From: Pseudomonas sp. ADAK13 | Lineage (GTDB): Bacteria; Pseudomonadota; Gammaproteobacteria; Pseudomonadales; Pseudomonadaceae | DNA: 64,000 nt | Direction: 5' to 3' | Assembly: GCF_012935715.1 (NCBI RefSeq) | Contig: NZ_CP052860.1 | Span: 5,952,001-6,016,000, forward strand | Shown: one piece after another, positions 12,066 to 43,083 of the stretch | Layout: every line of letters starts with the position of its first letter | How positions within the stretch are numbered: position 1 is the first letter of the stretch | Notes under the pieces: generated by a model | Seen by the model: the letters and a program-made list of their open reading frames with translations, nothing else | Told to the model about the DNA's origin: nothing | The model's database searches: none | Made by a program: the position numbers and the translations under genes

Positions 12066-12122
12066 GTGAGATACCGTGGCATCCAGGCCTAAGGTGTTTA
12101 TCGTACCTCACAAGGCCTCGAC

Positions 12123-12875: not shown

Positions 12876-12900
12876 GTAGGTGTTCTCTGTGTGGTGCAAT

Positions 12901-18835: not shown

Positions 18836-20116
18836 TCAGCCGCGATCCCGCATGCCGATACGTTTAACAGAGTGCGCCCGTTCTTGGTCATGAGAGTGAT
18901 AGTAAGTGTTCTGAGTGGTGCTGAGATTGCTGTGACGTAAGTCTTCCTGCAGGTCTTTTGGATTGCGCAAAGGGGCATCAAAGGTGGCGGAGGTGTGCCG
19001 TAGCCAATGAGCCGAAGCGCAACGCAGACTTTCCAACTCATGAAGGGCTCGACCCTCGTTACGCATATTGTCCGTTGCCTTATCAAAAACGGCTTGGAGG
19101 AGGGCGCGGATCTGTCGATCTGACAAACCCGCACGGCCATTGAGTGTTTTGATCAGAGGCGTGCTTTCGTCTTTAGCAGGCAACTCTGGCAATCCCAGAA
19201 ATCGTCGATAGCGCTTAAGGTAGCGTTCTACGTATACATCCCGCACAGCAATCTTTGCCGCCTTGTTGCCTTTGCCAACAGTGTGATACCACCAGTTTCC
19301 CTCAGCATCTAAACGGAAATCGCCCATGGTCGGTTTCCAGTTCTTTCTGCCTGCGAGATCGGACACGCGAAGGTACATAGCAAAGAGCGTGGCTAGAATA
19401 AATAAAGTGCGTTCGTGCCGCAATGGCTCTATGTCCGCCATGTTTTCAGCGGTGTCTAACACATAGTCCCATTGCAATGGAGTAAGTGCGCGAGAGGATG
19501 AGAGTTCAAACTCCTGCCCGGAAAACCGATTGCCTTTTTTTAACAATCTAAATGGATTGGTTTCGGAGAATCCATCTTCAACCAAGTATTCATAGAATCG
19601 ACTACACACAGTATAAACCTGATTCAAAGTGCCATTGGCAGCATGGTATTGCTGTTCGGCAACATGTTCTGCACTGTCATTTTTTCGCGACTTAAGATTA
19701 AAAGGTAGCCACTTAGGGTTAGGCAAGTACGCATCCAAGGGTCCCGTTGCCTCGGGATTGGTCACGAAACGGCTTCGCGTCACCGGACCTATCCAGTCGC
19801 CAGGTGGATTCCTGCAAAAATCCAAATAGTCTTGTGCATCCTGTCGTTTAAGCCGATTCAGCGGTTTGCCTTTAACGAGCAGTGACCACAGCAGCAATCG
19901 CTCAACGTGGCTTCTGTACGAGTTAAACGTTTGTGCGTTATCCGAAAAAGCACGCAGAAATGAACGTACTGCAGCGTAACCGCGTGCGACCTCCAGTTCA
20001 GATTCAAACTCGCCAAGATAAGTTTTGACGCAGTCCAGTGTGGGTGCATGAATGCTGAAGTCTTGCTCGATAAAAATATCATAAGTTTCGAACAAAGGTT
20101 TGGGTGCGCGAGCCAT
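18836..20116 (-). CDS. Tyrosine site-specific recombinase / integrase
   Basis: A 426-residue phage-integrase-type recombinase. The catalytic half shows Arg-I in LFAMYLRVSDLAGRK, Lys in the beta-hairpin VGKGNKAAKIAV, H-x-x-R in SAHWLRHTSA, and the tyrosine region in LSTTQNTYYHSHDQERAHSV. The last His/Trp position reads RHSNL. The N-terminal half has a SAM-like core-binding domain (YRSHVERLLLWSLLVKGKPL). It is full length and should be active. It lies next to a related gene on the same strand and to IS fragments, so it probably belongs to a genomic-island integration module. No att repeats could be identified by eye. Confidence 0.85.
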   Translation of the reverse strand: MARAPKPLFETYDIFIEQDFSIHAPTLDCVKTYLGEFESELEVARGYAAVRSFLRAFSDNAQTFNSYRSHVERLLLWSLLVKGKPLNRLKRQDAQDYLDFCRNPPGDWIGPVTRSRFVTNPEATGPLDAYLPNPKWLPFNLKSRKNDSAEHVAEQQYHAANGTLNQVYTVCSRFYEYLVEDGFSETNPFRLLKKGNRFSGQEFELSSSRALTPLQWDYVLDTAENMADIEPLRHERTLFILATLFAMYLRVSDLAGRKNWKPTMGDFRLDAEGNWWYHTVGKGNKAAKIAVRDVYVERYLKRYRRFLGLPELPAKDESTPLIKTLNGRAGLSDRQIRALLQAVFDKATDNMRNEGRALHELESLRCASAHWLRHTSATFDAPLRNPKDLQEDLRHSNLSTTQNTYYHSHDQERAHSVKRIGMRDRG

Positions 20117-20450
20117 GGGTGACAGCCGTTCTAATGATACGTTAAAGACTTCCAGTTATGACAGTAATCGGAAGTTGGCAGCTAATCTGCGAGGATTGCT
20201 TCAATCGACCGATGTTAGCGATTAGATCTCCAACACGCAACAAGCGCTGAAGAACCCACCGCTGCGGCATGCAGAGGTTGTTCAGCAACACCAGAAAGGC
20301 ACATCATGAGCTGAGAAGTTTTAACGTGGATTATGACAACGGGCGCGTGATGAGCACGAGAATATGAACCCCCTGAAACCCCTGATACCTCAATGCCAGA
20401 GCGTCCGGCTCGCATAGCTACTGTTCCGTCTCGGACCGAACGGTCTTTTT
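20117..20450. other. Gap between the two recombinase genes
   Basis: No gene is supported in these 334 bp. The minus-strand frame at 20215-20415 shows no recognisable protein features. The promoter of the first recombinase gene is expected near 20120-20160. Confidence 0.35.
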
Positions 20451-21620
20451 TCAGATGCCTTTACGCAAAATCGAACTGAATATTTCGGAGCCTAACTTTT
20501 TTTGAGTTTCGTAAATACCGTACTCTTGAAGACTCCCACTTATGCTAGCAATTCGTATAGAGTCCAAACACGATTTCTTCAGAGAAATTATTTCCTGATT
20601 ATCCACCCCTTCAACTTCCAGCTGTTGAACCGTTACCAGCACAATCTCATTGACAAGGTTTCTGATTTGACGTTGCGTCAAACCAGAACGACCATGTGAG
20701 GTCACCAGCAACGGCTCATCCTCATCGTCGGGAGCCTCCTTAGGCAGGCCACGACTTGCCCGATACCTTTCAAGATATGAGATGAATACGCTTGGGGCGC
20801 TCACTGCTTCGACGCCCCGTAGACCGTCAACCAAATACTGAACACCGCAGGTAGTATGTTTTAAAAGGTTAAATGAAGGAGTTCTCCTAATGTCTTTCGC
20901 AATCCACCGGATCGGCACTAAAAGATATCTCATCATGGCCACTATGAATAAGGCTCGCTCATGGCGACCGCAGCCCAGATTTGCGCCAACTCTTAAAACT
21001 TGATCCACATGCCAGACCGTCAGCCCGCGGTCAATGGACCTAGATTCGACACTTAAGGTTTGAAGAGGGAGCCTTTCGACATTTCGTGCCGGGTTAAACT
21101 GGCAAACTCCTTTGCGGATGAGGTAATCATAGAAAGACATGCAACAGGAGACTATGAGCCTAAACATACTCATTGTACGCATGCCGGTTTCATTGGCAGG
21201 CTTGGAAAATGGGCGCCAAGCCGGGTTAGCGATGTAGCCAACTCCATCAATCCAATCGAATCGTCGACGTGCGGCGTCGCCTACCCATTCGAAAGGGGGC
21301 AATGAGTTGAACTCTAGAAACTCTTGAAATTCTTCCTTGCCTATCGCTTCTACCGACTTTCCTTTTATGATCCATGACCAGAGTAATAAACGCTCTGTAA
21401 TACCTCTCGCAGATCCAAAACCTGAAAGATTCTCTCCATCACTATGCGAGCCGACACTTCCAGCAATGAATTCTCGCGCCAGATTCGCGTACTTGAAAGT
21501 ATTTAGGCTTGAGTCAAATCCAGCTAAATAACTCTCTACTCCTGGATGCTCTCGGTAATAATCAACCTCACATAAACCAATACTAGCCGCGGCTGAAAAG
21601 AGTGGATGAGGCAAGCTCAT
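20451..21620 (-). CDS. Recombinase-like paralogue lacking catalytic residues
   Basis: A 389-residue protein with the same architecture as its neighbour: ITERLLLWSWIIKGKSVEAI matches VERLLLWSLLVKGKPLNRL, and RSGLTQRQIRNLV matches RAGLSDRQIRALL. The Arg-I position reads MMRYLLVPIRW instead of MYLRVSD. The H-x-x-R segment reads LDSIRIASI, and no tyrosine-bearing LxxTQxTYxH motif is left at the C-terminus. It cannot be a normal recombinase; it might be an accessory DNA-binding partner or a decaying duplicate. The start at 21620 avoids a 15-residue extension. The DNA is noticeably more AT-rich than the core genes. Confidence 0.75.
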   Translation of the reverse strand: MSLPHPLFSAAASIGLCEVDYYREHPGVESYLAGFDSSLNTFKYANLAREFIAGSVGSHSDGENLSGFGSARGITERLLLWSWIIKGKSVEAIGKEEFQEFLEFNSLPPFEWVGDAARRRFDWIDGVGYIANPAWRPFSKPANETGMRTMSMFRLIVSCCMSFYDYLIRKGVCQFNPARNVERLPLQTLSVESRSIDRGLTVWHVDQVLRVGANLGCGRHERALFIVAMMRYLLVPIRWIAKDIRRTPSFNLLKHTTCGVQYLVDGLRGVEAVSAPSVFISYLERYRASRGLPKEAPDDEDEPLLVTSHGRSGLTQRQIRNLVNEIVLVTVQQLEVEGVDNQEIISLKKSCLDSIRIASISGSLQEYGIYETQKKLGSEIFSSILRKGI

Positions 21621-22199
21621 GATGATTATCTCTCGACCAATGTTTTGATAAGGGTAGGAGATCATCAGGAGATTTTGAGATTATTTTTTTTAAAAAATAT
21701 TCCCATCAGCAAGCCTTTGATTTGGGTCGTAATTAGTGACAATCCGAATTCGAGCATTATTTTTAAAGTCTTCAGTACTAAATACGTCATTGTTTCTTAA
21801 GGCTTTTCACATAATCAGTCAAAATCTTTAAGCTATAAACGTTTTGCAACCGTTTGATTTCTCGACCTTTAAGGGCACACTCAAAAGAAGAGATCATCGT
21901 TATCAGAGCTTCAGGTACCGAGTGAGAGACTGGTTTTTCGCCTCAATGACTTATCGTGACGATGCCGAGCTAGCAGGGCGTGAGGCTAAGCTTATGATTT
22001 CACGATACGATTTTTAAATTCACGAATTATCTTTTTTTGATAACCGCCACAGCGAGAGCGGCATGTAGGGGTACAGCAAGTTAATCTCTAACAAGATACG
22101 TGATTTAACATAATATACATTATGCGTAATCATATGATTCGTTATCAGGGGCAGTGCCAGTCAGATTTCAACAGGCACCGCCCCTCAAAACGCTGCGTC
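21621..22199. other. AT-rich gap at the island edge
   Basis: These 579 bp contain several A/T runs and no credible gene. They separate the recombinase pair from the HxlR/SDR modules and probably mark the right edge of the mobile region. No direct repeat to another edge was recognised by eye. Confidence 0.35.
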
Positions 22200-25979: not shown

Positions 25980-26270
25980 TCAGGTGATTTTGATCGCCCC
26001 CAACCCGGCCAAATAAGCCCACGGGTAAATCCCCCGTTGGTGCCCATCACTGAAGATCAACTGCACCCCATATCCCTGGGAATGAATTTCCAGCACGCGC
26101 ACGCCGTCCGACACCAGTGGCGGCGTGCCTTTCAGCCGAAAGGACCGGCACTGTGAGCATGGGCATTCACGGCGCAGGCGGGCATGGTCGATCCATTGCA
26201 CGCCCTCGCGCCACTCCAGCCTCAAGCGCCCTTCGTCATCCCGGCCAATGCGTTCAGGCGCGCTGTTCAT
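25980..26270 (-). CDS. DUF971 protein (GBBH-like N-terminal domain)
   Basis: A 96-residue single-domain protein. It shows LRLEWREGVQWIDHARLRRE followed by CPCSQC, and VQLIFSDGHQRGIYPWAYL, the usual DUF971 pattern. This domain is also found at the N-terminus of gamma-butyrobetaine hydroxylase and fused to Mrp/ApbC-type iron-sulfur carriers; alone it probably binds zinc or iron. It is the last gene of the APS-reductase-like operon, overlapping the HEAT gene by 4 bp (ATGA), so it is translationally coupled. A role in iron-sulfur supply to the ferredoxin subunit is my inference from this context. Confidence 0.85.
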   Translation of the reverse strand: MNSAPERIGRDDEGRLRLEWREGVQWIDHARLRRECPCSQCRSFRLKGTPPLVSDGVRVLEIHSQGYGVQLIFSDGHQRGIYPWAYLAGLGAIKIT

Positions 26271-27220
26271 TGCAGTTGGGCCAAGGCAATGCGTACGGCC
26301 TTGCGCACTTCCGGGTCGCCGTCGTCGGCAGCGTCCCGCAACGGGCCAAGGGCTTGCCGGTCGCCCAACTCGCCCAGCGCCAGGGCGGCTTCTTTGCGCA
26401 GGTTGCTGATGCTGTGCCCCAACGTCAGGATCAGTGGCTGCAACGCCGGTGTGTACCGCAAGCGCCCCAGGCTGCGGGTGGCGCGCAGGCGCACTTGCCA
26501 GTAGTCGTCGGCCAGCGCGTGGATCAAGGCCTCGCCGGCGCTGGCGCTACCGACTTTACCCAGGGTGGTCGCCGCCTCTTCTCGCACCTGCCAGGTGGCG
26601 TCCTGCAACGCTTCATACAGTGCCGGCAGCACACGCTCATCGCTGGCAAGGCCGAGGGCGCCGGTGGCAGCTCGGCGGACTTCGGTATCCGGGTCGCTAC
26701 TGGCCAATGTCGCCAATGCGTCCAGGGCTGGCAGGTGTTTGAGCCAGCCGAGCACACCCACTGCTTCACGGCGTACGCCGGCATCGGCATCGTTCAGCGC
26801 CAGCAACGCCGAAGGCGCCGCGGCCTCCAGGCGCAACTCGCGCAGGGCACGGAATATCGCGGCGCGTACGCTGACATCGGCGTGAGTGGTCCACGGCAAT
26901 AACAACCGGCCCGCCTGCGTTGTCTTGAGCACGCTCAAACTCTGGGCAGCGGCGTCACGTACCGACGCTTCGGTGTCGGTCAGTGCCCGGCACAGCGCCT
27001 CGACCACCTCATCTTCTTCCCAGGCTTCCAGCAGGCTGGCGGCCTGGGCGCGCACGTCGGTGGCCGGGTCGTTGCTCAGGCTGTCCACCAGCCACACCAG
27101 ACCGTCGGGGTCTTCGAGGTCGGCCAGGTCAATCAGGGCGATCCGGCGCATGCCGGCATCCGGCGCTTGCAGCCGTGGGCGCAGGGCTTCGATGTCGGGG
27201 TTTTCGGTTTCATAGGTCAT
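26267..27220 (-). CDS. HEAT-repeat protein (EZ-HEAT / PBS-lyase type)
   Basis: A 317-residue alpha-solenoid made almost entirely of about nine 31-residue HEAT units, seen as repeats of D-x-x-x-x-V-R-x-x-A-A-x-x-L-G (VREEAATTLGKVGSASAGEA and VRLRATRSLGRLRYTPALQP). EZ-HEAT proteins act as scaffolds or as chaperones for cofactor attachment. The ATG at 27220 overlaps the ATPase gene stop (ATGA), which fixes the start and shows operon membership. No signal peptide is present, so it should be cytoplasmic. Together with DUF971 it may mature or hold the flavoprotein/ferredoxin pair; that is inference. Confidence 0.85.
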   Translation of the reverse strand: MTYETENPDIEALRPRLQAPDAGMRRIALIDLADLEDPDGLVWLVDSLSNDPATDVRAQAASLLEAWEEDEVVEALCRALTDTEASVRDAAAQSLSVLKTTQAGRLLLPWTTHADVSVRAAIFRALRELRLEAAAPSALLALNDADAGVRREAVGVLGWLKHLPALDALATLASSDPDTEVRRAATGALGLASDERVLPALYEALQDATWQVREEAATTLGKVGSASAGEALIHALADDYWQVRLRATRSLGRLRYTPALQPLILTLGHSISNLRKEAALALGELGDRQALGPLRDAADDGDPEVRKAVRIALAQLQ

Positions 27221-28056
27221 ATGGCAAATCGCGGTCTTGGGTGATCGTTGGGCAGCCCGAGCGGGTTCAGCCGGGGCAACTGGCGACCATCTTCGTGGTG
27301 CAGCAGCTCCAGGCAATGGCGCTTGAGGTGGGTAAATTCCGGCGAGGTCATCAGCTCGGTGCTGCGGGGTCTCGGGAAAGTCAGCTGGAAGTCTTCGATG
27401 ATGCGCCCGGGACGCGGGCTCATGACCAGAATGCGATCGGCCAGGAACAACGCTTCGTCGATGTCATGGGTGACAAACACCACGGTGGTGCGGATACGTG
27501 TCCAGATGTCGAGCAGCAAGGCCTGCATTTTCATGCGGGTCAAGGCGTCCAGCGCGCCGAAGGGTTCGTCCATCAACAGCAGGCCGGGACGGTTGATCAG
27601 CACCCGGGCAATTTCCACCCGCTGCTGCATGCCGCCCGACAGCTGGTTTGGCCAACGCTCGGCAAAGCCTTCGAGGCCCACCAGCTCAAGGATTTCATCG
27701 GCGGCGGCGAGGCGCTCGGCCTTGCCCACGCCGCGCATCTTCAGGCCGAAGGCGACGTTTTCGCGCACCGAGCGCCAGGGGAACAGCGTGTGTTGCTGAA
27801 ACACCATGCCGCGCTGCTGTGACGGCCCGACCACCGGCCGGCCATCCATTTCCAGGGTGCCCAGGCTCGGGGTGAGGTGCCCGGCCAGCGCGCCGAGCAA
27901 GGTCGACTTGCCACACCCGGACGGGCCGAGGATGCACACGAACTGCCCCGGTTCGATCCTGCAATCCAGGGCCTTTACCGCCTCGAACGCCTGCTGCTGT
28001 TCGCCCAGGACAATGGACAAGCCGCGTATGTCGACACAGCCTTCAAGATGACTCAT
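27217..28056 (-). CDS. ABC transporter ATPase, SsuB/TauB/NrtD type
   Basis: A 279-residue ATP-binding subunit. Walker A is LGPSGCGKSTLLGAL, the Q-loop MVFQQHTLFPWRSV, the signature NQLSGGMQQRVEIARVL, Walker B LLLMDEPFGALDALTR, and the switch His sits in FVTHDIDEALFLADRI. The F-P-W and D-I-D-E-A-L variants are typical of the taurine/nitrate/sulfonate class. It shares 1 nt with the permease gene (TGATG) and 4 nt with the HEAT gene. It powers the importer encoded by the two genes upstream. The cargo is probably an anion, but cannot be specified. Confidence 0.92.
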   Translation of the reverse strand: MSHLEGCVDIRGLSIVLGEQQQAFEAVKALDCRIEPGQFVCILGPSGCGKSTLLGALAGHLTPSLGTLEMDGRPVVGPSQQRGMVFQQHTLFPWRSVRENVAFGLKMRGVGKAERLAAADEILELVGLEGFAERWPNQLSGGMQQRVEIARVLINRPGLLLMDEPFGALDALTRMKMQALLLDIWTRIRTTVVFVTHDIDEALFLADRILVMSPRPGRIIEDFQLTFPRPRSTELMTSPEFTHLKRHCLELLHHEDGRQLPRLNPLGLPNDHPRPRFAI

Positions 28057-28838
28057 CAGGCTTTACCTCGTGGTCGATGCCAGGGAGTGAACAATGCGCC
28101 AAGGCGCTTGACCAACAGGCTGCTGCCCATGCCCAGCACGCCGATCAACAGCATGCCGACGACAATGTCGGCATAGTTCTGGATGGTGTAGGACTCCCAG
28201 GTGTAATAGCCGATACCGTACTGGCCGGAGATCATTTCCGCCGTCACCAGGCAGAACCAGGAGGTGCCCATGCCGATAGCCAGGCCAGTGATGATGCTCG
28301 GCGCGGCGCCCGGCACAATCACCTCCAGCAGGATTGCCCGGCGCCCTGCCCCCAGGCTGCGCGCCGAGGCGATCAGGCGCGGGTCGACGCCTTCCACGCC
28401 ATGCACGGTATTGAGCAGCACCGGAAACAGCGCGCCGGTGAAGGTGATGAAGATCATCGACAACTCCGACGACGGAAACATCAGGATCGCCAACGGGATC
28501 CAGGCCACCGCCGGAATCGGCCGGATCACCTCCAGCGGCGGCAACAGCAGGTCTTCCGCCCACTTCCAGCGGCCTATCGCGATGCCCAGGCCGATCCCCA
28601 CCACTGCCGCCGCCAGGTAACCTTCAAACACCCGGGTCAGGCTCGCACTCAGGTGCCGGGCGAGCTTGCCCGAGTCCACCAGGCCCAGGGCGGCCTGCAC
28701 CACGGAACCCGGCGTGGGCACATTGGCAAAGGTCACCAGGCCCAGGTTCCAATGCAGGCTGGCCGCCAACTGCCAGAACAGCAGGCACAACAGCAGCGAA
28801 GCGGCCTTGGGCAGCCAGCGCCATGGGGTGCTTGTCAT
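28056..28838 (-). CDS. ABC transporter permease, SsuC/TauC type
   Basis: A 260-residue inner-membrane permease with about six hydrophobic segments (LLLCLLFWQLAASLHW at the start; YLAAAVVGIGLGIAIGRW). The EAA loop that contacts the ATPase is EGVDPRLIASARSLGAGRRA. Conserved P-I-P-A-V-A-W-I-P-L in helix 3 is typical of sulfonate/taurine/nitrate permeases. It ends exactly at the ATPase start and begins 12 bp after the binding-protein gene, confirming one transcription unit. As a single permease gene it should act as a homodimer. Confidence 0.92.
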   Translation of the reverse strand: MTSTPWRWLPKAASLLLCLLFWQLAASLHWNLGLVTFANVPTPGSVVQAALGLVDSGKLARHLSASLTRVFEGYLAAAVVGIGLGIAIGRWKWAEDLLLPPLEVIRPIPAVAWIPLAILMFPSSELSMIFITFTGALFPVLLNTVHGVEGVDPRLIASARSLGAGRRAILLEVIVPGAAPSIITGLAIGMGTSWFCLVTAEMISGQYGIGYYTWESYTIQNYADIVVGMLLIGVLGMGSSLLVKRLGALFTPWHRPRGKA

Positions 28839-28850
28839 GAACGCGCTCCC

Positions 28851-30257
28851 TCAGCGACCGGCAACGGCCTGCGCGCCGGCGTCGGTAAAGTTGAACACCT
28901 TGCCGCCCTGGGCCTGGGCGAACTGCTGCGCCTGGCCTTTGAGCAGGAACGCACTGAGCTGGCCTTGCTTGTTGGTTGCAAACCAGGCCTGGCTCGCCAG
29001 CAACTTGATGCCGCTGTCCTCGGCCTGGGCATACACCGCCCGCACGGCCTTGCCTTGTTTGTTGAGGCTGTCCAGCGCGGTGAATGCCGCCTCGGCCGAT
29101 GCGTAATCCCGCACCTTGGGCTCACCCTTGACCCAGATTTGCGCGACATGCTTCCAGTCAGTGATCGGCGCACCAGTCAGCGCATCGTTGGCCTTCAGCG
29201 GCGACTGGGCGTAGTTGCCCAATTGCGCCTGGTAGTCCAGGCCCGATGCCTTGAACGCGGCGCGGATGTACTGGTCATCGATAAAGGTCGTGAGGTCCAG
29301 GCCACGGTCGGCCTTTCTCAGCAACTTGAGGGTGTCGATGGCGGTGCCGACGGCCTGGCGGTACTCGGGCTTCCAGCTCAAGTCGCGGGTTTGCACGCCC
29401 AGCGGGCCATGGAACAGGTAGTTGACCTCGGCTTCAACGCCGGTGACTTTTTCGATCAGCTCGCTGTACTTCTCCGGCTCTGCGGCCAGCAACTGATTGG
29501 CCTCGATACTCGCACGCAGGTAGGCGACGACGACTTCCGGGTACTGTTTTGCGTAGTTCTCGTCCACCAGCGCGCCGTGGAATGTCGGGGTGTCGGATTG
29601 CGAACCGTCGTAGATCTTGCGGGCGAAACCACGGTTGGGGAACAACTCGCCAAACGGCACAAAGTCGGCGTGGGCGTCGATCTTGTTGGCCTGCAACGCC
29701 GAGCCCGCCACTTCAGGGGCCTGGGCAATGATGTTGACGTCCTTGAGCGGGTCCCAACCCTGGGCCGCTACGGCGCGCAGCAACATGCCATGGGCCGTCG
29801 AGGCGAACGGCACGGAAATCGTCTTGCCCTTGAGGTCCGCCAACGACTGGGCGCTGGAAGCGACCGGCACCACGATGCCGTTGCCGCTGCCCTTGATATT
29901 GCCCGACAGCACGCTGATAAACAGGCTGTGCTTGCCCGCGGCCTCAAACGCCACGCCGTTGAAGGCGCCGGGGAAGTCGGCCATTGCGCCAAAGTCCAGT
30001 TTGCCGGCGACCATTTCATTGGTCAGCGGCGCGCCACTGGTGAAGTTTTTCCACTGGACGTCGTAGGTGGCGTCCTTGTACTTGCCGTCGTGTGGCAGGT
30101 ACTTGTCCAACAGCCCCAGTTCGCGGATCAGCAAGCCGCCGGCCGCGCAGTTGATGGTGGTGTCCTGGGTGCCGATGGCCACCCGGATCGTTTGTGCCTG
30201 AGCCGAAAGGCTCAAGGAAGCCAGCACCAGGCCGGCCAACGTTGCGCGCAATAACAT
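28851..30257 (-). CDS. ABC substrate-binding protein with C-terminal NosL-like extension
   Basis: A 468-residue periplasmic protein with signal peptide MLLRATLAGLVLASLSLSAQ. Residues up to about 345 form a NMT1/SsuA-type binding domain (FGAMADFPGAFNGVAFEA, SVPFASTAHGMLLRAVAAQG), the usual length for sulfonate, nitrate or thiamine-precursor binding proteins. About 110 further residues follow. Their order D-Y-A-S-A-E-A-A-F, SQAWFATNKQ, LSAFLLKGQAQQFAQAQGGK and VFNFTDA resembles NosL copper-binding proteins (P-M-G, F-A-x-x-x-G-G-x-V-x-x-F). That match is from memory and lacks the Met/Cys ligands I would expect, so it is tentative. The gene is fourth in the operon counted from gntR. Confidence 0.85.
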   Translation of the reverse strand: MLLRATLAGLVLASLSLSAQAQTIRVAIGTQDTTINCAAGGLLIRELGLLDKYLPHDGKYKDATYDVQWKNFTSGAPLTNEMVAGKLDFGAMADFPGAFNGVAFEAAGKHSLFISVLSGNIKGSGNGIVVPVASSAQSLADLKGKTISVPFASTAHGMLLRAVAAQGWDPLKDVNIIAQAPEVAGSALQANKIDAHADFVPFGELFPNRGFARKIYDGSQSDTPTFHGALVDENYAKQYPEVVVAYLRASIEANQLLAAEPEKYSELIEKVTGVEAEVNYLFHGPLGVQTRDLSWKPEYRQAVGTAIDTLKLLRKADRGLDLTTFIDDQYIRAAFKASGLDYQAQLGNYAQSPLKANDALTGAPITDWKHVAQIWVKGEPKVRDYASAEAAFTALDSLNKQGKAVRAVYAQAEDSGIKLLASQAWFATNKQGQLSAFLLKGQAQQFAQAQGGKVFNFTDAGAQAVAGR

Positions 30258-30379
30258 TGGGTATTTCCCCTCGAATCATGGTTAAAAGAGTCGTCTCCGC
30301 CACGGTCTGGCGTGGTGGGAAACGAGGGGGTGTTGCTCGGGCGGCGTCCGGGGTTGGCGGATGGCTTTTGCGGCAGACC

Positions 30380-30625
30380 TCAGCGCAGCAGGTACGGGAT
30401 CTCGACCTTGACTGCACCGGTGGGGCAATCTTTTTCGCAGGGCATGCAGTACCAGCACTCATCGAACGCCATGTACGCTTTCTGCGTTGCCGGGTTGATC
30501 GCCAACAGGTCCATCGGGCACACGTCGACGCAGACCGTGCAGCCTTTTTCGGCGATGCACTTGTCTTCATCCACCGTCACCGGGGCGTTGGAGCGGAAGA
30601 ATATTTCCTGGGGCTGATAGGCCAT
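30380..30625 (-). CDS. Ferredoxin-type 2x[4Fe-4S] subunit, AprB-like
   Basis: An 81-residue iron-sulfur protein with eight cysteines in two sets: CIAEKGCTVCVDVCPMD and CWYCMPCEKDCPTGAVKVE. The extended first motif (C-x4-5-C-x2-C-x3-C-P) and the second C-x2-C-x2-C-x3-C-P resemble the beta subunit of dissimilatory adenylylsulfate reductase, but the AprB C-terminal extension is missing. It lies 40 bp downstream of the flavoprotein gene and should pass electrons to or from the FAD of that protein. A 122-bp gap separates it from the binding-protein gene. Confidence 0.88.
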   Translation of the reverse strand: MAYQPQEIFFRSNAPVTVDEDKCIAEKGCTVCVDVCPMDLLAINPATQKAYMAFDECWYCMPCEKDCPTGAVKVEIPYLLR

Positions 30626-30665
30626 TTCACGGTGTCCTGTGGTGAGCGAGCTTGGGGAGGCACAT

Positions 30666-32396
30666 TCAGGCGGCGTCAGCCCCTACGCGCAGGCGGTCGT
30701 AAGCCTGCATCTCTTCGGCATCCAGTGGGATCACATAGGGCTCGACGGGTTTCTTGAAGCTGACCATCTGCCCGTCATCGCCCTTTTTCAGGTGGCAATG
30801 GCAGAACCAGTCGGCGTCGTTGCGTTGCGGGTGATCGACCCGGTGGTGGTACAGGCCCCAACGGCTTTCGGCGCGGTACAGCGAGGCGCGGGCGGCCATT
30901 TCGGCGCAATCGCGGATCACGCTGGTTTCCATGGCGCGCATCAACTCGTGGGGGTTGTGGGCCTTCATCTGGTCCAGGTCGCGTTCGATGTCGGCGAAGC
31001 GTTGCAAGCCGATTTCCATCTTGCGGGTGACCTTGGGCGGTTGCAGGTAATCGTTCACGAAACGCCGCAGCTTGTACTCGACCTGGGCCGGCGGCAGGCC
31101 GGTTTCGCGGTCCAGCGGGGCGTACACCCGGGCCTGCTCGGCGGCCACTTGCCCGGCATCCACGGCGCTGAACTCGCGCCCGGCCACAAAGCTGGCGGCG
31201 TTGGTGCCGGCGAACCACCCATAAGTGAACGCACCCAGCATGTAGTTATGCGGCACCGCGGCCATGTCGCCCGCCGAATACAGGCCCTTGACCGAGGTCT
31301 CGGCGCGCTCGTTGACCCACACGCCCGACGCGGAATGCCCGCTGCAAAAGCCGATCTCGGAGATGTGCATTTCGACCATCTGGCTGCGGTAATCGGTGCC
31401 CCGGTTGGCGTGGAACTGGCCACGGCTCGGGCGCTCATTGCTGTGCAGGATCTGTTCGATGTTCTGGATGGTTTCCTCGGCCAGGTGATCGAGCTTGAGG
31501 AACACCGGCCCGTTGCCGCTTTCCAGCTCCTGGTGGAACTCCCACATCATCTGCCCGCTCCAGTAGTCACACTCGATGAAGCGTTCACCCTTGTTGTTGG
31601 CGGTGTAGCCGCCCAAGGGCCCGGTGACATAGGCGCAGGCCGGGCCGTTGTAATCCTTGATCAGGGGGTTGATCTGGAAGCACTCCAGGTTCGCCAGCTC
31701 GGCACCGGCGTGGTAGGCCATGGCGTAGCCGTCGCCGGCGTTGGTCGGGTTTTCATAGGTGCCCATCAGGTAACCCGACGACGGCAAGCCCAGGCGGCCG
31801 GCCGCGCCGCAGCACAGGATCACGGCCTTGGCCTTGATCACCTGGAAGTCCGCAGTACGGCAGTCAAACCCCATCACGCCATTCACCGCGCCGTCGCTGT
31901 CGGTCAGCAAACGGGTGCACACCAGACGGTTGGTGATCGTGACCCGGGCCCGCTTGAGTTGGCGATACAGCACCTTCTTGATGTCGTGCCCTTCGGGCAT
32001 CGGCAATACGTAGGCGCCCATGTGGTGGACTTTCTTCACCGCGTAATCGCCGGTTTCGTCCTTCTCGAACTTCACGCCCCAGCGGTCCAGTTGCTCGATG
32101 GTTTCAAAGCTGTGAGTCGCGTAGGCATACACCGCCGCCTGGTTGACGATGCCGTCGTTGGCAATCGTGATTTCCTTGGTGTACTGCTCCGGCGTGGAGT
32201 GGCCGGGGATAATCGCGTTGTTCAGCCCGTCCATGCCCATGCTGATGGCGCCGCTGCGCTTGACGTTGGCCTTGTCGATCAACAATACGCGCAGGTCACG
32301 GTTGGCCTCCTTGGCCTTGATCGCCGCCATGGGGCCGGCAGTACCGCCGCCGATCACCACGATGTCGTATTCCAGTTCCAGGGTTTTGCGGCTCAC
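30666..32396 (-). CDS. AprA-like flavoprotein (adenylylsulfate reductase / fumarate reductase family)
   Basis: A 576-residue FAD enzyme. The dinucleotide-binding motif is DIVVIGGGTAGPMAAIKAKE. KRSGAISMGMDGLNNAIIPG closely follows the AprA pattern, and further AprA-like landmarks are CFQINPLIKDYNGPACAYVT, NRGTDYRSQMVEMH, and GLYSAGDMAAVPHNYMLGAF near the FAD. The C-terminal helical domain contains SRWGLYHHRVDHPQRNDADW. It is about 50 to 90 residues shorter than sulfate-reducer AprA. The GTG start at 32396 overlaps the regulator stop (GTGA). With the ferredoxin it forms an Apr-like heterodimer, yet no sat, dsr or qmo genes are present, so the true substrate is probably not APS. Confidence 0.88.
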   Translation of the reverse strand: MSRKTLELEYDIVVIGGGTAGPMAAIKAKEANRDLRVLLIDKANVKRSGAISMGMDGLNNAIIPGHSTPEQYTKEITIANDGIVNQAAVYAYATHSFETIEQLDRWGVKFEKDETGDYAVKKVHHMGAYVLPMPEGHDIKKVLYRQLKRARVTITNRLVCTRLLTDSDGAVNGVMGFDCRTADFQVIKAKAVILCCGAAGRLGLPSSGYLMGTYENPTNAGDGYAMAYHAGAELANLECFQINPLIKDYNGPACAYVTGPLGGYTANNKGERFIECDYWSGQMMWEFHQELESGNGPVFLKLDHLAEETIQNIEQILHSNERPSRGQFHANRGTDYRSQMVEMHISEIGFCSGHSASGVWVNERAETSVKGLYSAGDMAAVPHNYMLGAFTYGWFAGTNAASFVAGREFSAVDAGQVAAEQARVYAPLDRETGLPPAQVEYKLRRFVNDYLQPPKVTRKMEIGLQRFADIERDLDQMKAHNPHELMRAMETSVIRDCAEMAARASLYRAESRWGLYHHRVDHPQRNDADWFCHCHLKKGDDGQMVSFKKPVEPYVIPLDAEEMQAYDRLRVGADAA

Positions 32397-33154
32397 GGGC
32401 GGCTACCTCGCTGACGGTCGATACGCAGGCGATACTGGAAGGCATCGCCGCGGTAATACAGGTGTTCAAAGTCCACCGGCTGGCCGTCGGCGGTGTGGGT
32501 CAGGCGTTCGATGCGCATGATCGGCGAACCGGCCTCGACGTTCAGCGCCTGGGTCAGCTCGCTGTCGGCGAGTACCGCGTCAATCGCCACGTCGGCGTGG
32601 CCCAGTTGCAAGCCGCAGTCGTTCTCCAGGATGAGGAAGATGTCGCGGGTCACCAGGTCGGCGTTTTCCAGGCGTTCGCCCAGGGCCTGGCTGAGGTAGG
32701 TGATTTCCAGCGACACCGGTTCGCGGTTGATCAGCCGTACGCGCTTGATCTGCGCGACCGTGGTGCCCTCCTCCACACCCAGGCGCTCGGCAACCAGCTT
32801 GTCGGCGGGCACAAAGCGGTAGCTGCGCAGGCGGTTGATCACTTCATAGCCGCGCTCGGTCATGGACTCGCCCAACCCCTGCAGGGTGCTGACGTTCTGA
32901 TAGGCCTTGGGTTTGGAGACGAAGGTGCCTTTGCCGTGGATCTTGTAGATCAGGCCTTCCTTTTGCAGATCACCCAGCGCCTGGCGCACGGTGATGCGGC
33001 TGACCTTGAAGCGCGCACCCAGTTCGCTTTCGGAAGGCATCTGGGTGTTCGGTGCGTATTCACCATCGAGGATGCGGCTGCGCAGCAGATCCCGCAGCTG
33101 GGCATGCAGCGGAACGCTGGACAGAGGGGATAAGGCGACGGTTGATTCGTTCAT
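32393..33154 (-). CDS. GntR-family regulator, HutC/UTRA subclass
   Basis: A 253-residue regulator. The N-terminal winged helix shows LHAQLRDLLRSRILDGEYAP and FKVSRITVRQALGDLQKEGL. The UTRA ligand domain follows, with its E-x-G-x-x-V-x-x-I-x-R-V-R pattern (EEGTTVAQIKRVRLINREPV) and C-terminal RIERLTHTADGQPVDFEHLY. UTRA members respond to small metabolites and usually repress the operon they head. It overlaps the flavoprotein start by 4 bp. I prefer ATG 33154 to the GTG at 33163; neither has a strong Shine-Dalgarno site. Two palindromes directly upstream are its likely operators. Confidence 0.88.
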   Translation of the reverse strand: MNESTVALSPLSSVPLHAQLRDLLRSRILDGEYAPNTQMPSESELGARFKVSRITVRQALGDLQKEGLIYKIHGKGTFVSKPKAYQNVSTLQGLGESMTERGYEVINRLRSYRFVPADKLVAERLGVEEGTTVAQIKRVRLINREPVSLEITYLSQALGERLENADLVTRDIFLILENDCGLQLGHADVAIDAVLADSELTQALNVEAGSPIMRIERLTHTADGQPVDFEHLYYRGDAFQYRLRIDRQRGSRP

Positions 33155-33165
33155 CAGGACCACTT

Positions 33166-33326: not shown

Positions 33327-36248
33327 TCAGAAGTTGTAGCTGACTCGGGTATACAGGATCCGACCAAACGGGTCGGCGTATTTCGGGTCGTACCCGCTCT
33401 GGAAGGCGTAGGTCTGGTTGCTGAAAGGCGGCGCCCGGTCAAACAGGTTTTTCGCGCCCAGGGTGACGGCCAGGGACTTGCTCCAGTTGTAGGTGCCCGC
33501 CAGGTCCCAGACGTTGTAGGAGCCCACCGCGTCGTGGGTTTCGGGGTCCGAGTCGTGATAACCACTGGTATAGCGGTTGGTCAGGCTAACGCCCAGTGGT
33601 CCCCGCGCCCAGGTACCGGTCAGGCTGTGGCGCCAGCGTGCAACGGCACCCGCGGTGGAGAACTCGCCGCCACGGAAATCACCGAGTTTGTCGATGTAGT
33701 CGCCCTTGAGCTCCTGCTGGTATTTGTATTGGTTGACGTAGGTGCCTTGCAGGCCGATGCCGAAGTCACCGATGGCGGTGCTCGGGAAGCGGTAGTCGAA
33801 ACTCACGTCTACGCCGTTGGTTTTGGTCTTACCCAGGTTGGCCAGGCCGGTAACGATGTGATCAATGGAGCCGTCAGCCTTACGAATCAAGCGGTCGCCA
33901 TAGGCGTCCGGGTCGTCGAAGACCGACGATTCCGGAAACTCGGCGATCTGGTTGGCGATGGTGATCCACCAGAAATCCAGGCCAGCGCTCAAGCGCTCAA
34001 TGGGTTGGAATACGAAACCAAAGGTCACGTTACGGGCGGTTTCCGGGCTCAGGCTGCCGTTGCCGCCGGTCTGCCGGCGGAACTGCTGGGCGCAGTCGCG
34101 GTTGCCGATCCCGCCATTGGCCGGGGTGCCGCCCGGGCACAAGCGCGGGTCGTTGTAGTTGGCCACGGTGTAGCTGGTGTAGGTCGGGTTGTACAACTCA
34201 TACAGCGACGGTGCGCGGAACCCTTCGCTGTAGGCGCCACGAACCACCAACTCCTTGAACGGCTGGAAACGGAACGAGTATTTCGGGTTGGTGGTGCTGC
34301 CAAAGTCGCTGTATTTGTCATGCCGCACGGCGGCGGAAAGCTCCAGGCTTTCGAGCACCGGTACGTTGACCTCGGCGTACTCGGCCGAGACGCTGCGATT
34401 GCCGCGCACCGCGCCATTGGGGTCTACGCCGAGGCTCTGCACGGTCTCGGCAAACTGGGCGAAATCCTGGTGAAAATCTTCCTTGCGGTATTCACCTCCC
34501 AGCGCCAGGCCCGTGGGGCCTGCCCCAAACCAGTCGCCGATTTCACGGCTCACGCGCCCGTCGATACTCTTCACCCGGCCAACGGCGGTGGCGTAGTCGC
34601 CATCGACGCGGCTGGACGCCAGCAACGCCCTGCCCGCTTCACTCTGCGGGCCGAACGGGTTGATCACGCCGTTGGCGATCCCCTGGCTGATGGTCTGGTC
34701 GTTCACATAACCGTCGAGAATGGTTTGCACCACTTTGTTCTGGTTGTAGGACGCGCCGACGTTGTAGTCCCAGTTCGCCACGTTGCCTTCAAAACTCAGC
34801 AGCAGGCGCTGGCTGGTGTTGTCATCTTCGTGCTTGCGCGCGCCGGCATCGGTTTCACGCCAGTTCACGTCTACCGGCTGTGTCGGGTCCAGGGCGAAGC
34901 CCGTGGGGCCCGGGGTGACGCCGTTGCCAGGATAGAAAGGCGTACCCGGGTTAACCTGGGCGCCCATCAGGGTGCCCGGGCCAATCTGCGTCCGGTTTTC
35001 GTTGCGCGCCCAGAAGTACTCGAGGCTGACTGTATGGTCATCGGCCAGCTTGCCGGTGGCCTTGGCAAAGGCCGAGGTTTTTTCGGTTTCAGGGACCAGG
35101 TCCAGGTAACTCCACAGGCTTTGGCGGCAGATGCCATTGCGTGACAACAGCCCCGGCGAGTTGCAGCCGGAGCCCGCCAGCGGGTTGGTCGCGTTGCTGC
35201 CCTGGCTCCAGTTAGCCGGCGCGGCGGTACCGGAGGTGAAATCCAGGCCGCGACCGGGCTGGTAGTTGTAGGTGAAGTCCCGGTCCTTGGCCGCCAGGCG
35301 CGTCTGCTTGTCATAGCTGACCACGCCGAACACGTTGAAGCGGTCCTCTTCAAGGTCGCCGAAACCGTAGCTGCCGCTGAAGTTATGGCTGTCGCCGCCG
35401 CCGGAGCGCGTCGGCGAGTCGTAATTGGTCGACAGCTGGCCGCCGGTCAGGCTGGTCTTGGTGATGAAGTTGATCACTCCGCCAATCGCGTCGGTGCCGT
35501 ACAGCGCCGAGGCGCCATCGCGCAGGACTTCCACGCGGTCGATGGCAGCGAACGGGATGGTGTTCAAATCCACCCCGGAGCCGTTGGTGGTGTTGACCGC
35601 GTTATTGCTCAGGCGTCGGCCGTTGAGCAACACCAGGGTTTTGTTCGCGCCAATCCCGCGCAAATCGGCAAAGGCCGCACCGCCGCTGCTGGAACCCACC
35701 GAGCGCCCGGAGCCAACGGAGGACTGGTTGGCAGAGATGCGGTTGATCAACTCTTCGGTGGTGCTCACACCTTGTTCGCGCAGTTGCTCGACCCGCAGGA
35801 TGGTCACCGGCACGGCTGTTTCAGCGTCCACCCGGCGAATCGCCGAGCCGGTCACGGTGACTTTTTCGAGGCGGTAGTCGGTGCTTTTACCTGCTGCCGG
35901 GGCGGCCTGGGGCGGCGCCACAGGCGCCGCCTGTACGGTCAGGCCCTGCTCGCTGTCACTCACTTGCAGGCCGCTGCCCTGCAACGCTTTGTCCACCGCT
36001 TGCAGGCTGCCCAGGTTTCCCCGAATGGCGGCGCTGCGTTTGCCCTGGACCAATTGTTGACTGAACGAAATCATCACCCCGGTCTGCCGGGAGATATCCA
36101 GCAGCACCGTATCGAGCGGGCCGCCGGCGATATCAAGGCTGAACACCTTAGCGGCCGCTTCCTGGGCCATCACCGATGTTGTGCAGACACCCATCGCCAA
36201 CGCCGCCGCCAGCGTCAGTCGTGGTAATTGTTGTTTGAATAAGAACAT
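33327..36248 (-). CDS. TonB-dependent outer-membrane receptor with STN domain
   Basis: A 973-residue receptor. After a signal peptide (LTLAAALAMGVCTTSVMAQE), an STN/secretin signalling domain spans about residues 35-105 (VFSLDIAGGPLDTVLLDISR). The plug follows (FADLRGIGANKTLVLLNGRR, VEVLRDGASALYGTDAIGGV) and then a 22-strand barrel ending in the aromatic terminus RILYTRVSYNF. The STN domain matches the fecI/fecR pair directly upstream on the same strand, so cell-surface signalling is expected. The usual cargo is a ferric siderophore or haem. Proximity to the Apr-like importer leaves open a different ligand; the barrel does not tell. Confidence 0.9.
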   Translation of the reverse strand: MFLFKQQLPRLTLAAALAMGVCTTSVMAQEAAAKVFSLDIAGGPLDTVLLDISRQTGVMISFSQQLVQGKRSAAIRGNLGSLQAVDKALQGSGLQVSDSEQGLTVQAAPVAPPQAAPAAGKSTDYRLEKVTVTGSAIRRVDAETAVPVTILRVEQLREQGVSTTEELINRISANQSSVGSGRSVGSSSGGAAFADLRGIGANKTLVLLNGRRLSNNAVNTTNGSGVDLNTIPFAAIDRVEVLRDGASALYGTDAIGGVINFITKTSLTGGQLSTNYDSPTRSGGGDSHNFSGSYGFGDLEEDRFNVFGVVSYDKQTRLAAKDRDFTYNYQPGRGLDFTSGTAAPANWSQGSNATNPLAGSGCNSPGLLSRNGICRQSLWSYLDLVPETEKTSAFAKATGKLADDHTVSLEYFWARNENRTQIGPGTLMGAQVNPGTPFYPGNGVTPGPTGFALDPTQPVDVNWRETDAGARKHEDDNTSQRLLLSFEGNVANWDYNVGASYNQNKVVQTILDGYVNDQTISQGIANGVINPFGPQSEAGRALLASSRVDGDYATAVGRVKSIDGRVSREIGDWFGAGPTGLALGGEYRKEDFHQDFAQFAETVQSLGVDPNGAVRGNRSVSAEYAEVNVPVLESLELSAAVRHDKYSDFGSTTNPKYSFRFQPFKELVVRGAYSEGFRAPSLYELYNPTYTSYTVANYNDPRLCPGGTPANGGIGNRDCAQQFRRQTGGNGSLSPETARNVTFGFVFQPIERLSAGLDFWWITIANQIAEFPESSVFDDPDAYGDRLIRKADGSIDHIVTGLANLGKTKTNGVDVSFDYRFPSTAIGDFGIGLQGTYVNQYKYQQELKGDYIDKLGDFRGGEFSTAGAVARWRHSLTGTWARGPLGVSLTNRYTSGYHDSDPETHDAVGSYNVWDLAGTYNWSKSLAVTLGAKNLFDRAPPFSNQTYAFQSGYDPKYADPFGRILYTRVSYNF

Positions 36249-36349
36249 CGAGGATCTCCCTGTTGAATGTGTCTACAGGGGATGAGCAGCAGCCTGCGGA
36301 TTTTTATAGGGCGGCGTTTAGGCAAAGAAGCTATGAGTTTATAACCGGT

Positions 36350-37297
36350 TTAACGCGACCCGATGCTCACCCAGTAAGCGCTGTGGTAAGTCACGCGAAT
36401 CGGCAATGAGTTCTGCAGCAATTGCAGGGTCCGATCCGTATCGTCCAGGGAATAGATGCCGCTCAGGCGCAACCGGGCGACGTCCGGGCTCAAGCGCAGA
36501 ATCCCGCGGCGATAGCTGCGCAGGCTATCGATTACTTCGCTCAAGGCGCGGTCGTGGACTTCCAGGCGTCCCTGGGTCCAGCCCGCTTCATCGCCCTTGA
36601 GCGGGCCAGTGCCGAAGGTGTGCTGCTCATCGAAACGCAGGCTCTGCCCGGCCTCCACAATTTGGCGCGCGCCGTCCCGGGTGACCACTTCCACCCGCGA
36701 ATGCAGCATCGCCAGGCGGGTGGACGCTTCGTCATGCTGCACCAGGAACCGGGTGCCCAGGGCACGAATCTGGCCATGCCGGGTTTGCACCACGAAGGGC
36801 CGTGTCGGGTCCTTGGCCACATCCACCAGCAACTCGCCATCCCGCAGCTCCAGCACGCGCTGGTGAGCGTCGAAGCGCGCCATTACCCGAGTCTGTGCGT
36901 TCAGCGTCAGCAAGCTGCCATCCTCCAGCGTGAGGTGCTTGCGCTCACCGGTGCCGGTATACAGCTCCCCGGTATCGCCCAGCCAGCCCTGGCGACGCCC
37001 GAGAAACAGCGCGGCCAGCGCGACGACACCCAGGCTGCCGGCGACAAACCGCCGGCGGCTGGACGGCGCTTTCAGGCTGTGCAACAGGCGCTCACTGGGC
37101 ACCCCGTGCAACGCCTGACTGCGCAACAGCCGCATGCCACCGCTCATTTGATCAATCACCTGGCGGTGACGAATGTCCGCCGCGCACCACGCCTCGAATG
37201 CCTGCCGTTCCTGAACGCTGGCGTGCTCCGATTGCAGGAGCGCCATCCAGCGCGCAGCCTCCTCGACCACTGCATCTTCCGGGCGTAAAAGGCTCAT
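36350..37297 (-). CDS. fecR: FecR-family anti-sigma/sigma regulator
   Basis: A 315-residue inner-membrane transducer. The N-terminal cytoplasmic sigma-binding part carries AARWMALLQSEHASVQERQA and FEAWCAADIRHRQV. A single membrane helix follows (RFVAGSLGVVALAALFLGRR), then a periplasmic FecR domain (ERKHLTLEDGSLLTLNAQTR, GQIRALGTRFLV). The C-terminal segment resembles an STN domain (DDTDRTLQLLQNSLPIRVTY). It should relay ligand occupancy of the adjacent receptor to the sigma factor. It overlaps fecI by 4 bp and ends about 100 bp before the receptor gene. The symbol denotes the family, not the E. coli citrate system. Confidence 0.88.
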   Translation of the reverse strand: MSLLRPEDAVVEEAARWMALLQSEHASVQERQAFEAWCAADIRHRQVIDQMSGGMRLLRSQALHGVPSERLLHSLKAPSSRRRFVAGSLGVVALAALFLGRRQGWLGDTGELYTGTGERKHLTLEDGSLLTLNAQTRVMARFDAHQRVLELRDGELLVDVAKDPTRPFVVQTRHGQIRALGTRFLVQHDEASTRLAMLHSRVEVVTRDGARQIVEAGQSLRFDEQHTFGTGPLKGDEAGWTQGRLEVHDRALSEVIDSLRSYRRGILRLSPDVARLRLSGIYSLDDTDRTLQLLQNSLPIRVTYHSAYWVSIGSR

Positions 37298-42048: not shown

Positions 42049-43083
42049 TTGAAACCCTATCCAATTCATTGCGTGTCGATCGTTATCCCGGTCTACAACG
42101 AACAAGAAAGCCTGCCTGAATTGCTGCGCCGCACCATGGCCGCCTGCAAACAGCTGGCTTACGAATACGAAATCATCCTGGTGGATGACGGCAGCCGCGA
42201 CAACTCCGCGCAATTGCTGGAAGACGCCGCCGCGCTCGAAGGCAGCAACGTGGTCGCGGTGATCCTCAACCGCAACTACGGCCAGCACGCCGCGATCATG
42301 GCCGGCTTCGAGCATTGCCGGGGCGACGTGGTGATCACCCTGGACGCCGACCTGCAGAACCCGCCGGAAGAAATCCCGCGCCTGGTTGAACAGGCCGCCC
42401 TGGGCTACGACGTGGTTGCCACCGTGCGCAACAATCGCCAGGACTCGGCCTTCCGCCGCTGGCCGTCGCGCCTGATCAACCTCGCCGTGCAGCGCTCCAC
42501 CGGCGTGGCCATGAGTGACTACGGCTGCATGCTGCGCGCTTATCGCCGCACCATCGTCGACGCCATGCTGGCCTGCCGCGAGCGCAGCACCTTTATCCCG
42601 ATCCTGGCCAACAGCTTTGCGCGCCACACCACGGAAATCCTGGTGCATCACGCCGAGCGTGAACACGGCGAGTCCAAGTACAGCCCGATGCGCCTGATCA
42701 GCCTGATGTTCGACCTGCTGACCTGCATGACCACCACGCCACTGCGCCTGTTGAGCATCGTCGGTTTCAGCCTGGCGGCGCTGGGCATGCTCTTCGCCTT
42801 TGCGCTGATTGTGCTGCGTATTGCCTTCGGTGCCGGCTGGGCCGGTGACGGGATGTTCGTGCTGTTCGCCGTCCTGTTCGTGTTCACCGGTGGCCAGTTC
42901 ATCGGCATGGGCCTCTTGGGTGAATACCTGGGCCGCATGTACAGCGATGTGCGGGCCCGCCCACGGTTCTTTATTGAAAAAGTGCTGCGCAACCAACCGG
43001 CAGCACCGGCCGAGACCTTTACGGTCGATGGCCTGACGTCTTCCCACACCTCTACTTCTCCTTCCGATCAGGTTTCGTCATGA
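42049..43083 (+). CDS. arnC: Undecaprenyl-phosphate 4-deoxy-4-formamido-L-arabinose transferase
   Basis: ArnC transfers formyl-aminoarabinose from UDP to undecaprenyl phosphate on the cytoplasmic face of the inner membrane. The 344-residue product has a GT2 domain ([52 protein letters not shown] with the D-x-D) and two C-terminal helices ([40 protein letters not shown]). The start is TTG at 42049, since the ATG at 42041 closes after three codons; GAGGT lies 9 nt upstream. It is the first gene of the operon here, whereas arnB usually precedes it. The gene overlaps arnA by 4 bp. Confidence 0.93.

Follow-up and report, generated by a model that had tools for sequence, protein, structure and literature searches.

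The eight-gene operon and its conservation

The DNA analysed here (the window) is a stretch of 64,000 nucleotides from Pseudomonas sp. ADAK13 (contig NZ_CP052860.1, positions 5,952,001 to 6,016,000). An eight-gene operon occupies its minus strand from 33163 to 25980, running from a GntR/UTRA regulator through an AprA-like flavoprotein, a two-cluster ferredoxin, the binding protein, permease and ATPase of an ATP-binding cassette (ABC) importer and a HEAT-repeat protein to a small DUF971 protein (Table 1). We tentatively propose that the flavoprotein and ferredoxin form a reductase acting on an imported sulfonate-type compound, from which it would release sulfite.

An initial annotation, made from the letters alone, had listed these eight genes on a single strand, and all are present in the order it stated. 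It described most junctions as overlapping by 1–4 bp, which is true of four of the seven (GntR/flavoprotein, 4 bp; permease/ATPase, 1 bp; ATPase/HEAT, 4 bp; HEAT/DUF971, 4 bp). The other three are gaps of 40 bp (flavoprotein/ferredoxin), 122 bp (ferredoxin/binding protein) and 12 bp (binding protein/permease). As it also noted, none of sat, qmo and dsr lies within the operon. Searching the 7.3-Mb host genome for dsrA gave nothing over the cut-off (sat and qmo were searched only at the operon, not genome-wide), and CysH, the ordinary assimilatory reductase, passes its cut-off in the same genome.

Table 1. Genes of the operon, in order of transcription, with window positions and the principal model match of each product.
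Product	Position	Strand	Match
GntR/UTRA transcriptional regulator, 256 aa	32393..33163	-	Pfam GntR 1.5e-20, UTRA 4.4e-39
AprA-like FAD flavoprotein, 576 aa, GTG start	30666..32396	-	NF006131 1142 bits, cut-off 587
Two-[4Fe-4S] ferredoxin (AprB-like), 81 aa	30380..30625	-	Fer4_7 1.9e-9
Periplasmic binding protein, 468 aa; SsuA/TauA-like domain and C-terminal NosL-like domain (~353-465)	28851..30257	-	
ABC permease, SsuC/NtrB type, 260 aa	28056..28838	-	BPD_transp_1 3.2e-23
ABC ATPase, TauB/SsuB type, 279 aa	27217..28056	-	ABC_tran 2e-33
HEAT/PBS-lyase-type repeat protein, 317 aa	26267..27220	-	HEAT_2 3.5e-55
DUF971 / GBBH-like_N small protein, 96 aa	25980..26270	-	PF06155 2.6e-17

Conservation was assessed on 80 Pseudomonas loci, the best 80 of a longer match list, and on 45 further loci drawn from sampled genomes and plasmid records. 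All were fetched by flavoprotein similarity, so the flavoprotein is present in every locus by construction. Two of the further loci repeat loci of the Pseudomonas set (L111 is L074 and L113 is L018), which leaves 123 distinct loci, and one record that appears as both L131 and L166 was counted once, as L131. Six of the 45, the two repeats among them, come from the host's genus or family, and several records come from one genus; in this mixture of genomes and plasmid records the loci are not independent. A gene was scored as present when BLAST comparison with the proteins of the window, or with some reference neighbours, gave a match at E 1e-5 over 60% of query length, wherever in the fetched stretch it lay; by this scheme ABC and regulator paralogues may be counted and divergent genes missed.

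Of the Pseudomonas set, 75 loci out of 80 have all eight genes, always on a single strand, in an identical order and over a span of 7.2–7.8 kb. Four of the five incomplete loci are on contigs that end early, and in the fifth GntR was not detected. Since the set is so consistently complete, collinear and on one strand, its grouping is not due to chance. Among the matches listed, the flavoprotein resembles Pseudomonas records at up to 99%.

The ferredoxin accompanies the flavoprotein in 80/80 Pseudomonas and 45/45 further loci, that is, in all 123 distinct loci. The HEAT gene is nearly as constant (76/80 and 44/45), and the one remaining further locus has it fused to the flavoprotein. The binding protein was found in 77/80 and 40/45 loci, and DUF971 in 76/80 and 28/45 (32/45 with a laxer threshold). 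No complete transporter of the SsuABC/TauABC type was detected in the fetched stretches of L107, L125, L129, L131 and L160, and for this reason the flavoprotein, ferredoxin and HEAT protein look like the core of the system. Outside Pseudomonas, gene order varies, as does the regulator, which may be GntR, Crp/Fnr-type or LysR. In L129, a Nostoc edaphicum plasmid, five extra genes (8001-14156) separate flavoprotein from ferredoxin; they encode two HAD hydrolases, a methyltransferase, a GNAT and a VOC protein, which suggests another substrate or product there.

Among sampled genomes, the flavoprotein family occurs in 65 of 199 from the host genus, in 5 of 369 of a class sample and in 21 of 398 of a phylum sample (host included in each). 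It was also found on records of a plasmid collection from proteobacteria, cyanobacteria and actinobacteria.

Flavoprotein, ferredoxin and importer

NCBIfam already holds a model of the flavoprotein family, NF006131, under the generic name 'fumarate reductase/succinate dehydrogenase flavoprotein'. The aprA model TIGR02061 gives the protein 176.9 bits, far under its cut-off of 641.75, and its best relative in the PDB by sequence is MtPAPSR (8a8o). For Cupriavidus metallidurans, asfRAB has been reported on CHR2 (PMC2864759), and the megaplasmid record that we take to be CHR2 has only two places that match the flavoprotein. One of them (L143), with a two-cluster ferredoxin alongside, was taken as the AsfA candidate; it is 26% identical to the flavoprotein. 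We built a FastTree tree of 38 sequences that included AprA, MtPAPSR, this candidate, SdhA and NadB. The flavoprotein family formed its own clade (support 0.965), sister to AprA plus MtPAPSR (1.0), with a joint clade of 1.0; the AsfA candidate, SdhA and NadB branched outside it. The description of the flavoprotein and ferredoxin as an Apr-like pair is upheld, with a place beside AprA and MtPAPSR.

Residues were counted in an alignment of 21 family sequences with 12 AprA sequences, using published roles for AprA. The AprA active site includes Asn74, Trp234, Arg265 and His398, with Asn74 and His398 described as direct contacts of the sulfate group (PMC2211403). Each of the eleven AprA positions compared is invariant in 12/12 AprA. 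The equivalents of Asn74, His398 and His446 are kept in 21/21 family sequences as N59, H354 and H383, Arg265 has become Leu245 and Trp234 has become Tyr214 in 21/21, and Arg317, which clamps adenosine monophosphate (AMP), is absent from all 21. Trp144, Gln145, Gly274, Phe277 and Lys281 are all replaced as well (Trp144, Gln145 and Lys281 in 21/21), although placement around AprA 141-145 is uncertain, as it differs between the two alignments made. Taken as a set, the AMP-pocket features (the Arg317/Leu278 clamp, Trp144, Gln145 and Lys281) are 5/5 invariant in the 12 AprA sequences and 0/5 kept in the 21.

As aligned, then, both direct sulfate contacts are kept; of the two contacts made through water, one is gone and the other is now a tyrosine, and the nucleotide pocket is lost except for His446. 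The residues reported as specific for 3'-phosphoadenosine 5'-phosphosulfate (PAPS) in MtPAPSR are Lys120, Arg121 and Ser122 (PMC10322725). The Arg121 and Ser122 positions correspond to Tyr129 and Val130 here, following a 5-residue insertion around which this alignment-dependent match is uncertain. The Arg265 and Arg317 equivalents, which mark the MtPAPSR type, are both gone.

Two identities were considered and rejected. For dissimilatory AprAB, both the aprA and aprB models score under cut-off, and Trp234, Arg265 and the AMP pocket are changed. For succinate dehydrogenase or fumarate reductase, the substrate-binding arginine sits in the RLGGNSL motif, which is replaced by HNYMLGAF in an alignment with 1nek, and the tree groups the flavoprotein with AprA. 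None of the 21 genomes carrying NF006131 in the 398-genome phylum sample has aprA, which occurs in 39 genomes of that sample. Judged by its sequence, the flavoprotein is not a reductase of adenosine 5'-phosphosulfate (APS). Conservation of the full APS site had been named beforehand as the observation that would speak against the initial annotation; the site is not conserved, and its proposal that the pair acts on a compound other than APS gains support.

The ferredoxin falls short of the aprB model too (TIGR02060, 37 bits against a cut-off of 135.65). Its eight cluster cysteines and Trp58 are invariant in 19 sequences, and Trp58 lies in the CWxC motif, which in AprB holds Trp48. The protein is therefore a two-[4Fe-4S] partner with a tryptophan, as in AprAB, with the position of Trp58 relative to flavin adenine dinucleotide (FAD) taken from AprB.

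The HEAT protein matches the C-terminal part of NF010374, the NCBIfam model of a flavoprotein-HEAT fusion. Such a fusion is carried by the actinobacterium Tsukamurella, and this links the two proteins. DUF971 is a domain found in Fe-S carrier proteins such as HCF101. In cyanobacterial clusters HEAT is followed by an Mrp/NBP35 Fe-S carrier, which in L127-L129, the three scanned, has a FeS_assembly_P domain. These clusters had no detected DUF971 gene, which fits an Fe-S assembly role. DUF971 is thus a possible Fe-S assembly helper, and it and the HEAT protein probably help to assemble the reductase.

The transporter genes encode a binding protein of the SsuA/TauA fold with a matching permease and ATPase, which places them in that importer superfamily and bears out the earlier call of a sulfonate-type importer. 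The binding protein is closest by sequence to TauA and SsuA. Scores against the equivalog models are below cut-off (TauA, 79.5 against 304.25 bits; SsuC, 132.8 against 347; TauB, 257.6 against 357). The NosL-like domain of the binding protein (28851-29219) is a weak match whose matched part has no Cys, Met or His ligands, and the C-terminal extension aligns in orthologues. In L154 (1297-4539) the cluster is followed on the same strand by a second SsuA-like transporter and an M20-type peptidase; in S. fredii (L158) an M20 aminoacylase and flavin-dependent oxidoreductases also come after the cluster.

Genes beside the cluster in other lineages

Outside Pseudomonas, the cluster adjoins systems of three unrelated kinds that reduce ferredoxin. 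A ferredoxin-reducing module lies within ~9 kb in 15 of the 45 further loci: ferredoxin-NADP reductase (FNR) in 11, an Nfn-like protein in 2 and Rnf in 2. The Nfn-like proteins (L131, L153) have 1153 or 1178 residues with GltD- and PyrK-like parts, and their name rests on partial model matches, all below cut-off. The Rnf operons are in L155, where RnfB alone was scanned, and L156, where the models covered RnfA, B, C, D, G and E; RnfD of L156 is over the subfamily cut-off and under the RsxD equivalog cut-off, and rnfA of this locus begins 27 bp after fdxA. FdxA, a second ferredoxin, accompanies 11 of the 45 loci. Among 11 phylum-level genomes, taken as Alphaproteobacteria, we counted 25 FNR copies; in 9 of the 11 a copy adjoins the cluster, and for G012 this linked copy is the sole FNR found. 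Neither FNR nor FdxA, the two searched for, was found in the 80 Pseudomonas loci, and Pseudomonas would use housekeeping electron donors. Given these three sources of reduced ferredoxin, we think that the enzyme is likely to be a low-potential reductase working in the reductive direction. Where the initial annotation spoke of an assimilatory oxidoreductase, the direction can now be narrowed to one that is most likely reductive.

Genes of sulfite resistance or export (YeiH, TauE/SafE) and other sulfur genes form a second group of neighbours. YeiH (PF03601) occurs within ~9 kb in 9 of the 45 further loci and TauE/SafE in 4, jointly in 10; three cyanobacterial loci (L127, L128, L161) have both, Aquabacterium (L139) has TauE, and six phylum-level loci have YeiH. 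Deletion of yeiH is reported to make Salmonella sensitive to sulfite (PMC12880088). When 18 genomes were searched for YeiH, a linked copy was found in six, all among the 11 phylum-level genomes. These 11 hold 14 YeiH copies (one split in two pieces), and copy number and genome size would give ~0.05 linked genomes by chance. Five of the six linked genomes belong to one genus, and none of the seven same-class genomes has a linked copy. Other sulfur genes near the cluster include, in two Sinorhizobium records, TauD together with transporters for sulfate and sulfonate, and, in Paraburkholderia, a 3-mercaptopropionate dioxygenase, and flavin-dependent oxidoreductases of the LLM/NtaA type are near it in S. 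fredii, Cupriavidus and Paraburkholderia. Some other named records have no sulfur neighbours. In the 80 Pseudomonas loci, YeiH and TauE were not detected and a TauD-like gene was present in 8.

Sulfur is rather likely to be the theme of the system. Since YeiH and TauE/SafE adjoin the cluster in other lineages, sulfite is the likely product, which sharpens the earlier suggestion of 'perhaps an organosulfur or other anion' by naming what would be released.

The statement that no described function was known for this gene set in Pseudomonas is not fully right, in that the set has appeared in print. Besides the generically named NF006131, there is a 2026 report on the orthologous operon of Acinetobacter baumannii ATCC 17978, which it calls a 'GntR-ABC efflux system'. 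Its genes were chosen from the H2O2 response, and it lists the flavoprotein and ferredoxin; GntR was found to bind a 241-bp promoter region and to activate transcription (PMC13104710). The binding protein, being of the importer type, is at odds with the 'efflux' label. No publication among the matches listed, most of which were not opened, names a substrate. In the A. baumannii record (L135), the chromate efflux gene chrA (6641-7990) is transcribed divergently from the operon; as an exporter of a sulfate analogue, it may be linked to sulfur.

Within the window itself, the operon has directly upstream of it (33327-37297) a FecR-like gene and a TonB-dependent receptor whose N-terminus is of the signalling type, both named by appearance. 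Two tyrosine-recombinase-like open reading frames of 426 and 404 aa, likewise by appearance, occupy 18836-21665, where GC is 0.44-0.47 against 0.54-0.67 nearby; this may be a mobile or recently acquired segment. An arn/pmr-type lipid A modification-like cluster, with ArnC, ArnA, ArnD, ArnT and UDP-glucose dehydrogenase recognised by appearance only, is at 42049-49737.

Proposed activity and comparison with known systems

The account we favour, and hold as a whole with some reserve, is that a ferredoxin-driven Apr-like reductase frees sulfite from an imported sulfonate-type compound. The SsuA/TauA-like binding protein, with the permease and ATPase, would bring a sulfonate-type organosulfur anion into the cytoplasm. 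Low-potential electrons would pass from reduced ferredoxin to the AprB-like two-cluster ferredoxin and from there, via Trp58, to the FAD of the flavoprotein, which would cleave the sulfo group off as sulfite for sulfur assimilation. The HEAT and DUF971 proteins would act as assembly or Fe-S-loading factors. The substrate would be an organic sulfo compound, bound in a pocket that may no longer fit a nucleotide. The chemistry could be like that of Apr and PAPSR, the N5 of reduced FAD attacking a sulfo group that Asn59 and His354 keep in place; we put this flavin-adduct mechanism forward more cautiously than the reaction itself. Reductive sulfonate cleavage with release of sulfite has a precedent in IsrBHDK (PMC11423573).

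The pair might instead be an Asf-like electron donor, feeding a separate oxygenase that desulfonates the imported compound oxidatively, an arrangement that has been proposed for asfRABC. As described, asf has a binding protein, an ABC transporter, a reductase/ferredoxin and a LysR regulator, and asfA mutants lose the use of aromatic sulfonates (PMC4267179). The LLM/NtaA-type oxidoreductases near some clusters would suit such a donor, as would two SsuD-type genes over cut-off in the host genome (others are below). Yet the operon itself has no oxygenase, its flavoprotein retains catalytic-site residues of a substrate-converting family, clusters with their own FNR, Nfn-like or Rnf module require no second reductase, and the C. 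metallidurans AsfA candidate, with its low identity, falls outside the clade. We consider this arrangement unlikely. It also seems improbable that the operon reduces an imported non-sulfo anion, such as a nitro, N-oxide, selenium or halogenated compound, and that the sulfur neighbours are incidental. Among the 11 phylum-level genomes YeiH is linked far more often than chance would give, and the linkage recurs in three cyanobacterial loci, TauE is near the cluster in two phyla, the nearest enzyme clade acts on sulfo groups, and TauA and SsuA are the closest binding proteins by sequence. This must be set against an importer family that also carries nitrate and bicarbonate, whose structures fit the model almost equally well, the Pseudomonas loci without YeiH or TauE, and the A. 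baumannii operon, which responds to H2O2 and adjoins chrA.

The A. baumannii report reads the ABC genes as an efflux pump under GntR control that serves tolerance of drugs and oxidative stress. In it, the promoter region is bound by the regulator, which activates the operon, and the regulator and ABC genes are reported to affect oxidative stress, drug susceptibility, motility and virulence (PMC13104710). The window and 40 of the 45 further loci nonetheless encode an importer-type SsuA/TauA-like binding protein. ABC efflux pumps are not known to have an importer-type periplasmic binding protein in their architecture, and we regard a pump as very unlikely. A true APS or PAPS reductase of sulfate assimilation is largely refuted by the sequence and hardly to be expected: the sister position to AprA and PAPSR, the same two-subunit layout and the retained equivalents of Asn74, His398 and AprB Trp48 speak for it, but Arg265, Arg317, Lys281, Trp144 and Gln145 are changed in 21/21, the host already has CysH, and a dedicated importer would make no sense for an internal nucleotide.

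If the reductive release of sulfite is right, the flavoprotein might represent a new class of desulfonating flavoenzyme from the APS reductase lineage, dependent on ferredoxin, independent of oxygen and freed from nucleotide activation, a step further that we consider doubtful. On that reading, many soil bacteria and some cyanobacteria and actinobacteria would release sulfite by direct cleavage of organic sulfonates or S-sulfonates that they import. To our knowledge, the known aerobic routes of sulfonate assimilation (Ssu, Tau, Msu) are oxygenases. If true, a reductive route in common soil bacteria, by an enzyme related to APS reductase with another pocket, would bring a further enzyme class into the sulfur cycle. 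A generically named NCBI family would thereby gain a testable function, and the A. baumannii 'efflux pump' locus a metabolic reading. Organic sulfonates are described as a large part of soil sulfur (PMC4267179).

Compared with known systems, the operon shares with MtPAPSR and AprAB an FAD subunit with a two-[4Fe-4S] subunit, a sister-clade relationship, the Asn74/His398 equivalents and the Trp in the second cluster motif. It differs from them in having Leu for Arg265, no Arg317 clamp, changed pocket residues, a short ferredoxin of 81 aa and a linked importer, and no sat/qmo/dsr in the operon. Its binding protein, permease and ATPase belong to the same families as SsuABC and TauABC, with all components below the equivalog cut-offs and the extra NosL-like C-terminal domain setting them apart. 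The likeness to the isethionate reductase IsrBHDK, as reported, is one of working only, sulfite being released reductively from a sulfonate; that system uses a nitrogenase-like plus radical SAM enzyme, made of unrelated proteins. The A. baumannii operon (AUO97_RS16340-16365) has the same order of GntR, flavoprotein, ferredoxin and ABC trio, with a 78% identical flavoprotein, and HEAT and DUF971 come next in its record; it differs in having been published as an oxidative-stress efflux system, with no role for flavoprotein or ferredoxin stated in the portion of the report available (PMC13104710). Finally, asfRABC of P. putida S-313, which serves arylsulfonate desulfurization, has a LysR-type AsfR where GntR/UTRA is found here, and the available part of its description does not mention HEAT or DUF971 (PMC4267179). 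With its flavoprotein-type reductase, ferredoxin, binding protein, ABC transporter and likely sulfur role, it is the nearest functional analogue of the operon, and the candidate AsfA is only a distant relative of the flavoprotein.

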